From a virus: a stretch of 33,616 bases of DNA. Location: the IMG/VR virus record IMGVR_UViG_3300011113_000221, positions 1-33,616 of that record. One strand, given 5' to 3'. Both the position numbers and the translations under genes were made by a program. Under the pieces are notes generated by a model. The model was not told the origin of the DNA and did no database searches. It saw only the letters and a list, made by a program, of their open reading frames with translations. Below are positions 11,268 to 16,414 of the stretch, piece after piece (positions within the stretch are counted from its first letter, which is position 1; every line of letters starts with the position of its first letter).

Positions 11268-11420
11268 GCTCACTTAGATTCTCACCAAGAAAAGCCAATG
11301 AAATCAAGCACTTAGGGGCGCCGGTGAGGAAGTGAGAATGGTGAGCGACTAACTTCTAGGTTTTGAAAAGAAAGAATATATATAGAAATACCTGGAGGGG
11401 CGCGCTCACTTTCTCACTTT
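11268..11420. repeat. GTGAG/CTCAC element, copy A
   Basis: It begins with GCTCACTTAGATTCTCACC (11268-11286). Then come three direct GTGAG motifs (11324-11345), an AT-rich core with GAAAAGAAAGAATATATATA, and an inverted block CGCTCACTTTCTCACTT (11404-11420). The GTGAG block and CTCAC block are near-complements and could form a long hairpin. The same order recurs at 12739-12897. A replication origin with flanking iterons, or a multi-site operator, are the leading readings. Confidence 0.65.
11294..11307 (+). repeat. Iteron-like repeat, copy 2
   Basis: GCCAATGAAATCAA, identical over 14 bases to 11727-11740 and followed by GCACTTAGGGG, which partly matches the other copies. It lies inside element A. 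Confidence 0.55.
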
Positions 11421-11453
11421 CTGTCTAAACTATTGAAATGCTTGCGCTTTCTG

Positions 11454-11559: not shown

Positions 11560-11566
11560 CGCGTGC

Positions 11567-11610
<44 letters not shown>

Positions 11611-12354: not shown

Positions 12355-12501
12355 GCGCCCTGGCGAAGGGGGGTAGGCCCACCCAGGGCGGCAAAAATCA
12401 GGCCGGGTCAGGTCTGTGTCAGTATGCCCCTACCAGAATCGCGCGTATTTTTAGACTTGCCCTATTTTCGCCACAATCCACTTAAGATCAGTCTTCTGAC
12501 A

Positions 12502-12738: not shown

Positions 12739-12897
12739 GCTCACCTAGATTCTCACCTAAAAGTTGCAGTTATATCAAGCGATTAGCTCAAAAGTGAGAA
12801 AGGTGAGCGTGGTGAGCGACCCCTTCTTATAAGAAAAGAAAGTATATAATATATAAAGTAACCCGAAAATACGCTCACTTTTCTCACTTGCTCACTT
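12739..12897. repeat. GTGAG/CTCAC element, copy B
   Basis: Same order as copy A: GCTCACCTAGATTCTCACC (12739-12757; 18 of 19 identical to A), three GTGAG motifs (12794-12816), an AT-rich core with GAAAAGAAAGTATATAATAT, then CGCTCACTTTTCTCACTT (12873-12890) and one more CTCAC. AAGTGAGAAAGGTGAGCG and its partner are complementary at 17 of 18 positions, so a long hairpin is possible. The total length between landmarks is 134 bases, against 136 in copy A. Confidence 0.7.
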
Positions 12898-13089
12898 ATC
12901 TAATGATATCAATGACTTACAGGCCGCCGCGGGGGTGAGCTTCTCGGTGAGTTTCCCCGTTTGTTACGATTCGCGAACGTATCTGTAAGGAGGCCGCATT
13001 TCGGCATTGTAGGATACGGTACCCTTATATCACACCCGTCAGGGGAAATCAAGCTCTTTGGCCCGACGGGTCCCGCGCATACGCGCCCC

Positions 13090-13118
13090 TTGACATCCGA
13101 CCCTGCATACGCTATATT
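13090..13118 (+). promoter_or_regulatory. Strong promoter P1
   Basis: TTGACA (13090-13095), exactly 17-base spacer, TATATT (13113-13118) within GCTATATT. This fits both the general housekeeping consensus and the alphaproteobacterial GCTA-type -10. The predicted start is near 13125. It lies directly upstream of a strong terminator rather than a gene. Confidence 0.8.
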
Positions 13119-13124
13119 ATGTTC

Positions 13125-13233
13125 ACCGCTAAAAGAAGGACTCTAATGTCCCCGAGCGGCGACTATCCCAAATGTCTCCTTGCGCGTACACCCCCAGAAT
13201 CTGCCCCTCACTACGGTAGGTTCTGGGGTTTTT
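13125..13233 (+). ncRNA. Putative small RNA or attenuated leader, about 110 nt
   Basis: The stretch between promoter P1 and the terminator ending at 13233. It contains a good ribosome site and start (AGAAGGACTCTAATG, ATG at 13146) that opens a frame running through the terminator and in frame into the 13296 gene. It could therefore be a stand-alone phage small RNA, or a leader whose translation or antitermination controls read-through. The exact 5' end is predicted from the -10 box. Confidence 0.5.
13191..13233 (+). terminator. Strong terminator between two promoters
   Basis: CCCCAGAA pairs with TTCTGGGG and the stem continues inward with CTGCC/GGTAG, giving about 14 pairs and a 9-base loop, followed by TTTTTG. 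It sits about 70 bases after the P1 start and just before a second promoter. Confidence 0.8.
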
Positions 13234-13238
13234 GCTTC

Positions 13239-13267
13239 TTGACAGCCCTCGCGCCCGGTGCTACACC
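13239..13267 (+). promoter_or_regulatory. Promoter P2 for nucleotide-metabolism genes
   Basis: TTGACA (13239-13244), 17-base spacer, TACACC (13262-13267) within GTGCTACACC. The -10 is weak by the general consensus but near GCTANAWC, and TG precedes it. The predicted start near 13274 gives a 22-base leader to the GTG at 13296. Confidence 0.55.
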
Positions 13268-13295
13268 GTCCTTCCTACAAGCAAGGAGCAAACCC

Positions 13296-13493
13296 GTGGA
13301 ACCTGAATATGACCGCTTTGACTTCGAGCAGCAAATCCTAAAGTGCTGGAACATCGTGGATGACCTTAAGTCCTTCCGCAAGCGCGAAGTCCCCGACGAA
13401 GCTTACGACGGTCTAGCCGCCACCTACCAGCAGCACTTCGCCATCCTTTGGGACATGTTCGAGTACCTCCTTCAAGAAGGTAAGTTGAAATGA
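13296..13493 (+). CDS. Hypothetical small protein, 65 aa, GTG start
   Basis: The product begins (M)EPEYDRFDFEQQILKCW and is acidic and helical. The GTG at 13296 has AAGGAG 7 bases upstream and follows promoter P2. Longer in-frame starts exist at 13146 (good ribosome site, 115 residues) and 13119. The 13119 start overlaps the P1 promoter boundary, and the extra residues encoded through the terminator look non-protein-like, so the GTG is favoured. It ends in an ATGA overlap with the next gene. Function unknown. Confidence 0.65.
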   Translation: MEPEYDRFDFEQQILKCWNIVDDLKSFRKREVPDEAYDGLAATYQQHFAILWDMFEYLLQEGKLK

Positions 13494-13702
13494 CAGACGA
13501 AACCATGGAACTCACGCATCAGGACCTGGTTGAGGCTTTTGACCGCGTCCTTCAGCAGCTAGAGATCATAGACGACTCAGCGATCTTCAAGAACATCAAT
13601 ACCGGCATGTTCGACATCGAGGAAGTCGCCAAGGTCCTCCTGAGCTTCAAGAGCAAGCTAATCATTGACGCCCACAAGAAAGGCATCCTTGAATGGAAGT
13701 AA
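13490..13702 (+). CDS. Hypothetical small protein, 70 aa
   Basis: An acidic helical protein beginning MTDETMELTHQDLVEAFDRVL. It starts in an ATGA overlap with the upstream gene and overlaps the thyX start by 10 bases, so it is in the same operon. No known domain. It may modulate nucleotide synthesis, but only by position. Confidence 0.7.
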   Translation: MTDETMELTHQDLVEAFDRVLQQLEIIDDSAIFKNINTGMFDIEEVAKVLLSFKSKLIIDAHKKGILEWK

Positions 13703-14352
13703 CCTACCTCAACCACATGGGTGACGACCGTACCGTCGTGAACGCAGCCCGCGTGTCCTTCGGCAAGCGCACCAAGGACTTCAGGCCCGGCAAGGACGAC
13801 CGCCTAATCCGCTTCTTAGCTCGCCACAACCACATTCTGCCCTTCGCCCACCCCACGGTCAGCTTCCACTTCCGGGCGCCCATCTTCGTGGCCCGCCAGC
13901 TTGCCAAGCATCAGGTGGGCTTCGTATGGTCCGAGATCAGCCGTCGCTACGTGAAGGACGACCCCGAGCTGTACTGGCCTACCAAGTGGCGCAAGGCGGC
14001 CCCTGATGTCAAGCAGGGCAGCAGCGACGAGGAGTTCACTGATCCCTTCGGCTCCGCACAGCGCGCCCACACGACAGCCCGTGCCCTCGTCTGGGACTAC
14101 AAGCGGCTCGTGATCGACGGCATGTGCCCCGAGCAGGCGCGCATGATCCTGCCCCAGAACATGTACACGGAGTGGCACTGGACCGGGTCGCTGTTAGGCT
14201 GGTCGCGGGTCTGGAATCTGCGCGTCAAGCCTGATGCCCAAGCGGAAACCCGCGAAATAGTCCAGCTTATCGAGCCTACAATGCGGTCGCTGTTTCCGTA
14301 TTCATGGCTGGCTTTGGTGGACCATCCACTAGCAAAATCCGCCGACATCTGA
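13693..14352 (+). CDS. thyX: Flavin-dependent thymidylate synthase ThyX
   Basis: A 219-residue enzyme that converts dUMP to dTMP using FAD and methylene-tetrahydrofolate. Seen: NAARVSFGKRT near the N-terminus, LPFAHPTVSFHFRAPIFVARQLAKHQ (residues about 49-74) and the ThyX signature region SEISRRYV (80-87), a variant of RHRxxSxNExSxRY. LPQNMYTEWHWTG further on matches the dUMP-binding C-terminal part. Length is typical (about 210-250). It precedes the ribonucleotide reductase gene, and together they would raise the dTTP and dNTP supply for phage replication. Confidence 0.9.
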   Translation: MEVTYLNHMGDDRTVVNAARVSFGKRTKDFRPGKDDRLIRFLARHNHILPFAHPTVSFHFRAPIFVARQLAKHQVGFVWSEISRRYVKDDPELYWPTKWRKAAPDVKQGSSDEEFTDPFGSAQRAHTTARALVWDYKRLVIDGMCPEQARMILPQNMYTEWHWTGSLLGWSRVWNLRVKPDAQAETREIVQLIEPTMRSLFPYSWLALVDHPLAKSADI

Positions 14353-14386: not shown

Positions 14387-16414
14387 ATGCGTAATTCACC
14401 TGAATTTCGTACGCCCTCAGTGCGTGCGTCAACCATCACTCGTCGCACCTACGCTAGACCCCTCGACAACGGAACCTTTGAAAGCTGGGATGACATTGTG
14501 GGTCGCGTAATCAGCCACCAGCGTTGGCTCTGGCAGCGCGCCCTCGGCGACAAGCCCCTTGACACGAAGCAAGAAGGCGAGTTAGAAGAACTGCGCGAAG
14601 TGCTGTTGCGTCGCAGCGGCTCCGTGTCCGGGCGTACCCTGTGGCTGGGCGGTACCGACGTAGCCAAGCGCCGCGAAGCCTCCATGTTCAACTGCGCGTT
14701 CACCAAGGTGGAGACTGTCCATGACGTCGTCGATGCCTTCTGGTTGCTATTGCAAGGGTGCGGCGTGGGGTTCGAACCCATTGTCGGTACGCTCAATGGC
14801 TTTACTGCGCCTATGGAAATCGAAGTGGTACGCTCCCAGCGTCATCTACTTGAACAGAAGAAAGGCCGCGAGACCAATGTTGAGAGCTACGTTCAAGAGG
14901 GCGAAAAGACCGTCTGGACAATTAGTGTGGGCGATAGTGCCGAGGCGTGGGCCAAGTCGGTGGGTAAGATGCTCGCTGGCAAACGGAAGGCTGACGTTCT
15001 ACGACTTGACTTCTCGCAAATACGTCCGAGCGGACAGCGTCTTAAAGGCTATGGGTGGATTTCCTCTGGTGATGAAACGTTTGCACCGGCAATGCAACGC
15101 ATGGCGGGAATCCTTAACAATCGATCTGGTAGTCTGCTTTCCCGAATCGACATTCTCGACATCCTCAACCACCTCGGAACCACTCTCTCCTCACGCCGCT
15201 CGGCGGAGATCGCGCTTGTGCCTTTCGGCGATGCTGAATGGGTAGACTTCGCCCAAGCCAAGAAGGACTTCTGGGTCCATAACAACTTCCATCGCCAGCA
15301 ATCCAACAACTCCGTAACCTTTCACACGCGCCCAGAACGGCACGACATTGCCCGCCTGTTCGACATGATGCAAGACGCGGGCGGCTCTGAACCGGGCTTC
15401 ATCAACTTCGTCGAGGGCAAGCGTCGCGGTCCCTGGATGTCAGGCGTGAATCCGTGCGCCGAAATCCTGCTTCCCAACAAGGGCTTCTGCAACCTCGTTG
15501 AAATCAACCTCTCGCACTTCAACGGGCGTGAAGCTTTGAAGCTGTGGCGTACTGCCGAACTGCTGGCCCGCGCCAATTACCGCCAGACCTGCGTGAACTT
15601 GGTCGACGGCGTCTTGCAGCGTGCCTGGCATGAGAACAACGAGTTCCTGCGTCTGTGCGGCGTGGGCGTCACGGGCGTCGCCGAATGGGAACCGGCAGGC
15701 GATCCCTCCGTGTGGCGTATGTTGCGCGACAAAGTCAAGCGGGCAGCTAACCGTATGGCCGACGAACTGGGCTTGCCGCGTCCCAAGGCCGTCACTACGG
15801 TCAAGCCGTCGGGCACCCTATCGAAGATCATGGACACCACAGAGGGCGTTCACAAGCCGCTGGGCCGCTACATTTTCAATAACGTCCGGTTCAGCAAGCA
15901 TGATCCGTTCGTGCAGGAGCTGATCGACGCCAACTACCGCGTCTTTCAGGACCCATCTAGCCCTGACGCAGTGCTGGTGACGTTCCCGGTAGCCTATCCT
16001 AACGTCAAGATGGACGAAGTCGACGGTAAGTTCGTGAACTTGGAGCCTGCCACAGTCCAGTTGGCGCGCTACAAGACCATGATGGACAACTACGTAGACC
16101 ACAACTGCTCGGTTACCATCAGCTATAGCCCCGAAGAAGCCCCCGCCATTGTGGATTGGCTCCACGAGAACTGGGATTCCTACGTCGGCGTCAGCTTCCT
16201 GTACCGTACAGACCCCACAAAGACCGCTCAGGACCTCGGCTACCTATATTTGCCCCAACAGGTGGTCACAAAAGAAGACTATGACGCCTATGTAGTTACC
16301 CTTAAGCCCCTTGAAGGACAGGAAGCGGGGGCACGGGAGCTTGTTAGCGAAGCTGATGACTACGAAATTGACACTGGCGGGGAATGCGCTACGGGTGCGT
16401 GTCCGGTGCGTTAG
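14387..16414 (+). CDS. nrdJ: Class II (B12-dependent) ribonucleoside-triphosphate reductase
   Basis: A 675-residue adenosylcobalamin-dependent reductase of the monomeric triphosphate type. Seen: SGRTLWLGGTD, then MFNCAF (Cys103), GCGVGFEP, NPCAEI (Asn355, Cys357, Glu359, the radical-site cluster), HNCSVT (Cys574, redox partner) and a C-terminal pair CATGACPVR (Cys667, Cys672) that would shuttle electrons from thioredoxin or similar. All key residues are present, so it is probably active. It makes dNTPs without oxygen but needs host cobalamin. It follows thyX, and its stop overlaps the next start. TAGGAG lies 6-7 bases before the ATG. Confidence 0.93.
   Translation: MRNSPEFRTPSVRASTITRRTYARPLDNGTFESWDDIVGRVISHQRWLWQRALGDKPLDTKQEGELEELREVLLRRSGSVSGRTLWLGGTDVAKRREASMFNCAFTKVETVHDVVDAFWLLLQGCGVGFEPIVGTLNGFTAPMEIEVVRSQRHLLEQKKGRETNVESYVQEGEKTVWTISVGDSAEAWAKSVGKMLAGKRKADVLRLDFSQIRPSGQRLKGYGWISSGDETFAPAMQRMAGILNNRSGSLLSRIDILDILNHLGTTLSSRRSAEIALVPFGDAEWVDFAQAKKDFWVHNNFHRQQSNNSVTFHTRPERHDIARLFDMMQDAGGSEPGFINFVEGKRRGPWMSGVNPCAEILLPNKGFCNLVEINLSHFNGREALKLWRTAELLARANYRQTCVNLVDGVLQRAWHENNEFLRLCGVGVTGVAEWEPAGDPSVWRMLRDKVKRAANRMADELGLPRPKAVTTVKPSGTLSKIMDTTEGVHKPLGRYIFNNVRFSKHDPFVQELIDANYRVFQDPSSPDAVLVTFPVAYPNVKMDEVDGKFVNLEPATVQLARYKTMMDNYVDHNCSVTISYSPEEAPAIVDWLHENWDSYVGVSFLYRTDPTKTAQDLGYLYLPQQVVTKEDYDAYVVTLKPLEGQEAGARELVSEADDYEIDTGGECATGACPVR

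Follow-up and report, generated by a model that had tools for sequence, protein, structure and literature searches.

PeSL cassettes, the promoter/stem-loop units of T4-like myoviruses, are said to have been described by Arbiol in 2010 and by Comeau in 2014. Little is known about regulatory RNAs in lytic phages. In phage T4, the ribosome site of gene e is hidden in long transcripts and free in those that start at a promoter just upstream, and a review of this phage holds that no trans-acting regulatory RNA has been functionally characterised in it (PMC3014915). The locus described here resembles the phage-encoded small RNAs reviewed in PMC12197685 in that a phage genome holds a short RNA gene which may contain a segment for pairing; it differs from them in coming from an uncultured phage, in being predicted from sequence, and in its unusual presence or absence between two promoters. 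A short phage RNA gene with a promoter and a terminator is ordinary; unusual here is that it is placed, exchangeably, between two promoters. We propose, with a probability of roughly 0.55, that this is an exchangeable regulatory-RNA cassette that keeps transcripts of its own promoter from expressing orf65, orf70 and thyX, in cis and possibly in trans.

The window, meaning the whole 33,616-base stretch of DNA that was analysed, is itself one virus record, and its source phage is podovirus-like and uncultured. At 35-36%, the portal-like protein matches a protein of Pelagibacter phage HTVC027P as well as head-to-tail connecting proteins from Roseobacter phages CRP-901/902. Genes of rIIA/rIIB-like type point leftward, and a block running rightward includes thyX, a class II-like ribonucleotide reductase, an endonuclease VII-like gene and structural genes; a tRNA/tmRNA search of the window found none. 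Since the GenBank phage collection matched the window only in short stretches within thyX, relatives were drawn from IMG/VR, and L-numbers (L002, L006, L022 and so on) are the labels of those compared at the cassette locus. In a close group ThyX is 83-90% identical and orf65 and orf70 stand before thyX. In a distant group ThyX is about 71-75% identical, the gene-proximal promoter (P2, below) is followed directly by thyX, and orf65 and orf70 were not found at the thyX locus. A search of 9 relatives for a single-subunit phage RNA polymerase found none, and its controls also gave no match. Elsewhere in the window, a non-coding element at 12401-12490 (GTCAGnATrCCCCTACCAnATTCGCGCGTATTTTT...) is 78-95% conserved in 18 relatives of both groups. 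Two block copies, at 12740-12910 and 11268-11439, are 70% identical and consist of an AT-rich core flanked by GGTGAG arrays and inverted CTCACC arrays; they are candidates for a replication origin or regulator-binding iterons, and second copies also occur in L002, L008, L013 and L015. A GT dinucleotide tract of 23 copies at 11563-11609 is unusual for a phage genome.

Promoters, terminator, layout, presence or absence, the orf65 start and complementarity were all established by sequence comparison, and the features given below lie on the + strand. Promoter P1 (13090..13118, TTGACA-17-TATATT) agrees with the consensus at 11/12 positions, is the top promoter-like site in the part of the window between 5 and 24 kb, and is predicted to drive an orphan RNA. 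Promoter P2 (13239..13267, TTGACA-17-TACACC) has a perfect -35 and a weak -10 (9/12), and is predicted to serve orf65, orf70, thyX and nrdJ. Relatives hold equivalents of P2 with -10 elements TACAAA, TATACA, TATAAC, TAGATT and TAAATT at an identical spacing of 17 throughout, and P2 is therefore very likely a real promoter; the distance from its -35 to the orf65 GTG is 55-57 nt in 10/10 orf65-bearing genomes examined. Such sites are rare by chance, with 4 occurrences of TTGACA-N17-TANA in the window versus 0.14 +/- 0.35 expected from shuffles; four relatives, 54-63 kb long, hold 2-5 each, versus 0 with reversed-pattern controls. Other near-consensus promoters in these four relatives are few and located away from the cassette locus. 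A GC-rich inverted repeat, GGGTCCCGCGCATACGCGCCCC (13068..13089), abuts the P1 -35 and is conserved before the promoter whether the cassette is there or not. The pattern GGGTCCCNCGCN{2,6}GCGN{1,5}TTGACA was found in 15 viral contigs, once each, all of them relatives at the P1 locus, and in bacterial genome contigs its matches were scattered over unrelated taxa, apparently by chance. Another inverted repeat, TGTCGGTACTTAT...CCGACA, lies directly before the -35 in L004, L007 and L008, where it follows or replaces the GC-rich repeat and is a possible operator.

Between the promoters lies a predicted non-coding RNA of ~110 nt (13125..13233), its 5' end placed from the P1 -10, as were transcription starts in general, and its 3' end from the terminator. 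The fold of 13125-13233 is predicted at -40.7 kcal/mol (z -4.3), with a 5' stem at 13126-13159 (CCGCT/AGCGG around a hairpin GGAC/GTCC), then a middle part that is mostly open, and at the 3' end the terminator. The intrinsic terminator (13192..13233) has a 14-bp stem (13192-13205 / 13215-13228), a 9-nt loop and U5 at 13229-13233; its hairpin reaches -24.9 kcal/mol (z -5.9), which 0/200 shuffles equalled. A consensus terminator scan probably missed this hairpin because its loop limit is 8. By sequence, the predicted RNA has its own promoter and intrinsic terminator with no gene between them, and the earlier note, which had read the region as a near-consensus promoter, a strong hairpin terminator and a second promoter right after it, had the coordinates right within a base or two. 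Rfam covariance models gave 0 matches above the gathering score in the window and 0 in 16 relatives.

That note had also proposed comparing relatives over 13125-13233 for conserved structure, which turned out in part: the layout recurs and terminator pairing is kept in L022 and L006, but the RNA sequence varies widely. Between the window and these two relatives, stem pairing is kept, by eye, through two double changes from A-U to G-C, and in the first module of the distant group the terminator stem is nearly invariant, with a double change in 1/12 pairs. The GGACnCTAAnGTCC hairpin is common to the window RNA and the L006 RNA. The RNA 5' ends of L006 and L022 are identical at 47/47 nt, while their P1 spacers (71% identical) and orf65 genes (83%) have drifted, which suggests selection on the RNA or exchange of it.

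No fewer than 10 distinct relatives share the layout of P1, RNA and P2, and in every one it precedes thyX-nrdJ. An exact TTGACA-17-TATATT P1 is present in the close relatives L006, L022 and L051 and in the distant relatives L013, L014, L016, L018, L019, L021 and L046, and behind each of those 10 sites come a structured stretch and, after it, P2. L007 has P1, one 50-nt hairpin and P2, and L010 has a weaker P1-like site plus P2. One promoter and no RNA cassette are found in L002/L003, L005, L004 and L008 of the close group and in L009 and L020 of the distant group, the lone promoter sitting at the same place; L012 apparently has one weaker promoter (by eye). The cassette is thus present or absent as a unit among relatives, and this clean pattern, together with the conserved pair of promoters, supports the earlier proposal of an orphan P1 that makes an RNA of about 110 nt and a second promoter that serves the genes. 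The two-promoter layout was seen in none of 18 further orf65 loci, three of which hold one promoter-like site.

In close relatives homology ends at or within about 10 nt of the P1 -35. When the window is aligned locally with L002, L003, L005, L051 and L052, the match extends from about 12.7 kb to 13098-13099 and ends there, and alignment blocks end at 13096 with L006 and at 13088-13089, just before the -35, with L007 and L004. In the cassette-free L002 and L005, the lone promoter starts like P1 (TTGACATCC) and continues gene-ward as the P2 of L051 does (CTTCCCAtCAACgAAGGAG), which is the pattern expected if the cassette was gained or lost via exchange at the promoter. What lies between the promoters differs among relatives. 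The distant L013, L014, L016, L018, L019, L021 and L046 hold hairpin arrays of about 250-430 nt, whose modules come and go; pairing in the last hairpin is apparently kept, by eye, through the double changes GACC/GGTC, GTCC/GGAC and GGCC/GGCC (the latter in L010). An identical 50-nt hairpin (GCCGGGCGACTGTCTTTCTATAGGG...) occurs in L051 (3199-3508) and L007 (1-300) in different surroundings, the orf65 genes of the two being 86% identical.

Such mosaic RNAs could also be explained by a promoter-terminator insulator or recombination cassette of the PeSL type known from T4, in which the RNA itself has no function. Presence or absence of the unit at the promoter fits this explanation, as do the hairpin that L051 and L007 share in different surroundings and the terminators of L016 and L019, which match although their 5' parts differ. 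In PeSLs (PMC4503421), a promoter plus stem-loop terminator unit lies in phage intergenic DNA and varies between relatives, as is found here; this locus differs from it in being a single one, in a podovirus-like group, with a longer RNA between promoter and stem-loop. PeSLs are reported scattered, in many copies within gene-shuffling regions, whereas the cassette elements that we searched for elsewhere in viral contigs were found at one locus per contig and in relatives only, no adjacent shuffling was seen, and the genes behind the cassette are not shuffled. The 47/47 nt identity between L006 and L022 also exceeds what a bare insulator needs, and we regard a functionless RNA as quite improbable. 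More tentatively, the locus may be thought of as a phage RNA docking site, a fixed promoter pair upstream of a nucleotide operon where recombination at the promoter swaps one non-coding RNA module for another, some modules acting as cis and trans anti-Shine-Dalgarno switches. The modules would then run from about 60 to 430 nt and from a single hairpin to a hairpin array with compensatory changes.

Downstream of P2, orf65 (13296..13493) encodes a small conserved phage protein with a GTG start, 42-66% identity in 6 relatives and the motif RFD.EQ.I..CW. The family is widespread, with 169 related stretches in viral contigs, and searches of Pfam and PHROG returned no family for it. The start of orf70 (13490..13702; 49-73% identity in relatives) overlaps the orf65 stop (ATGA), and orf70 in turn overlaps thyX (13693..14352), a flavin-dependent thymidylate synthase (Pfam Thy1, E 1.3e-38). 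A ribonucleotide reductase of the B12-dependent type, NrdJ-like (14387..16414; Pfam PF02867 and PF17975 above cut-off), follows.

In the window a frame through 13119/13146 is open into orf65, which raises the question of whether the RNA region is translated. An N-terminal extension of orf65 from ATG 13146 and a leader peptide from the same codon were both considered and ruled out, since the frames before the GTG are not conserved and are stopped in relatives, by a TGA within the P2 -35 in L022 and by a TAA in L051; the lengths of the frames follow no pattern. Conservation of the protein begins only at GTG 13296, and the window's open frame over 13146 is probably accidental. Protein-level conservation over 13146-13295, which the earlier note had named as the sign of a longer protein, is absent. 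Its overall interpretation therefore divides: the orphan-RNA reading is supported, and the idea that translation from ATG 13146 through the terminator acts as a switch is not, no matching frame being conserved. The wider form of that idea takes the region for a leader of the thyX-nrdJ operon, either an attenuator or a riboswitch, with P1 as the operon promoter and with read-through controlled by a ligand or through translation of a leader peptide that begins at ATG 13146. It is very improbable, even though a promoter, a structured RNA and a terminator do stand ahead of nucleotide genes and the frame is open through the terminator in the window: a conserved P2 follows the terminator directly, a lone promoter suffices in cassette-free relatives, no leader frame is conserved, Rfam has no match, and the RNA sequence is too variable for a conserved ligand pocket. 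Because the layout recurs, other relatives lack the RNA and the upstream frames fail, P1 most likely drives a stand-alone RNA of ~110 nt.

A possible regulatory link between this RNA and orf65, which is new relative to the earlier note, is suggested by an anti-Shine-Dalgarno segment, CUCCUUGC (= CTCCTTGC; 13176..13183), the perfect complement of the orf65 ribosome-binding site GCAAGGAG (13281..13288), its predicted target. The segment has a mean unpaired probability of 0.75 in the predicted fold of the terminated RNA. Against dinucleotide shuffles of the RNA, the contiguous match has p 0.006 in the window, 0.005 in L022 (10 bp) and 0.007 in L006 (11 bp with one G-U); in L051 the match of 7 bp (p 0.37) is alone not significant. 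The distant L014 has a match of 11 bp with one G-U (p 0.005), five other distant RNAs have no such match, and no anti-Shine-Dalgarno segment was seen in the hairpin-only cassette of L007. In ensemble folds of read-through transcripts, the ribosome-binding site is predicted to pair with P1 RNA at 0.61 in the window, 0.85 in L022, 0.999 in L006 and 0.61 in L051, versus shuffle means of 0.04, 0.12, 0.30 and 0.10 (p 0.02, 0.01, 0.01 and 0.04, respectively), that is, in 4/4 orf65-bearing genomes with a full cassette. The combined p is 7e-5 when the four folds are treated as independent and 6e-4 without L006; the close cassettes are only partly independent, L006 and L022 sharing ancestry. Read-through folds of seven distant relatives, L014 included, gave no occlusion above shuffles. 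We chose these tests once the complementarity had been noticed by eye, and they are thus strong hints and not proof. There is also no clear genome-by-genome co-variation, since pairing of the window RNA scores higher with the site of L006 (24) than with that of the window (21).

The same RNA may instead be a stand-alone small RNA acting in trans on host or other phage mRNAs, its match to orf65 being that of a generic anti-Shine-Dalgarno seed. It has its own promoter and terminator, its predicted fold offers a 5' hairpin, a mostly open seed and a terminator, and the stretch CUCCUU is similar to the 16S 3' end as well and would find partners in many ribosome-binding sites, others in the window scoring nearly as well (18.5 and 17.5 vs 21). 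Yet orf65 is still the top and best contiguous match among 39 candidate start sites, all of them in the window, and we consider purely trans targets elsewhere unlikely.

Under the reading that we prefer, an exchangeable cassette that restrains P1 transcripts, 13090-13233 would be a small-RNA transcription unit with a strong sigma70-type P1, a structured RNA and an intrinsic terminator, removable from its place upstream of P2, which would be the true promoter of orf65-orf70-thyX-nrdJ. We infer from the comparison that the unit is transcribed and terminated and that occlusion takes place, and likewise any action in trans and any consequence for orf70 and thyX. P1 RNA that stops at the terminator would be released as a small RNA. 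In read-through P1 RNA, the anti-Shine-Dalgarno segment would fold around the terminator hairpin onto the orf65 ribosome-binding site, giving poor translation, and given the overlaps of orf65 with orf70 and of orf70 with thyX, a block at orf65 may lower translation of these as well. P2 lies downstream of the anti-Shine-Dalgarno arm, so its transcripts would lack the arm and only they would be fully translatable, which would uncouple the nucleotide genes from transcription from P1 or further upstream. The Shine-Dalgarno sequence in the P2 mRNA is itself predicted to be partly paired. The released RNA could in addition damp the P2 mRNA, since a hiding arm that sits in a separate terminated RNA could reach P2 mRNA in trans as well as read-through RNA in cis.

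This arrangement would resemble the leader occlusion of T4 genes e, soc, 49 and I-TevI, where an arm in upstream transcripts occludes the ribosome-binding site and RNA from the proximal promoter lacks the arm (PMC3014915); folding of the long transcript over the site, with a proximal transcript free of the arm, is predicted in 4/4 close cassettes. Unlike in gene e, the occluding arm here lies upstream of a terminator, in an RNA unit with its own promoter, and could act in trans, and the gene-proximal promoter is of the sigma70 type and not a T4 late promoter. The locus is a natural experiment, in which related phages have the RNA, a different RNA or no RNA before the same genes. It suggests a simple design in which a single segment of RNA could both act in trans and, in cis, silence transcripts that read through.
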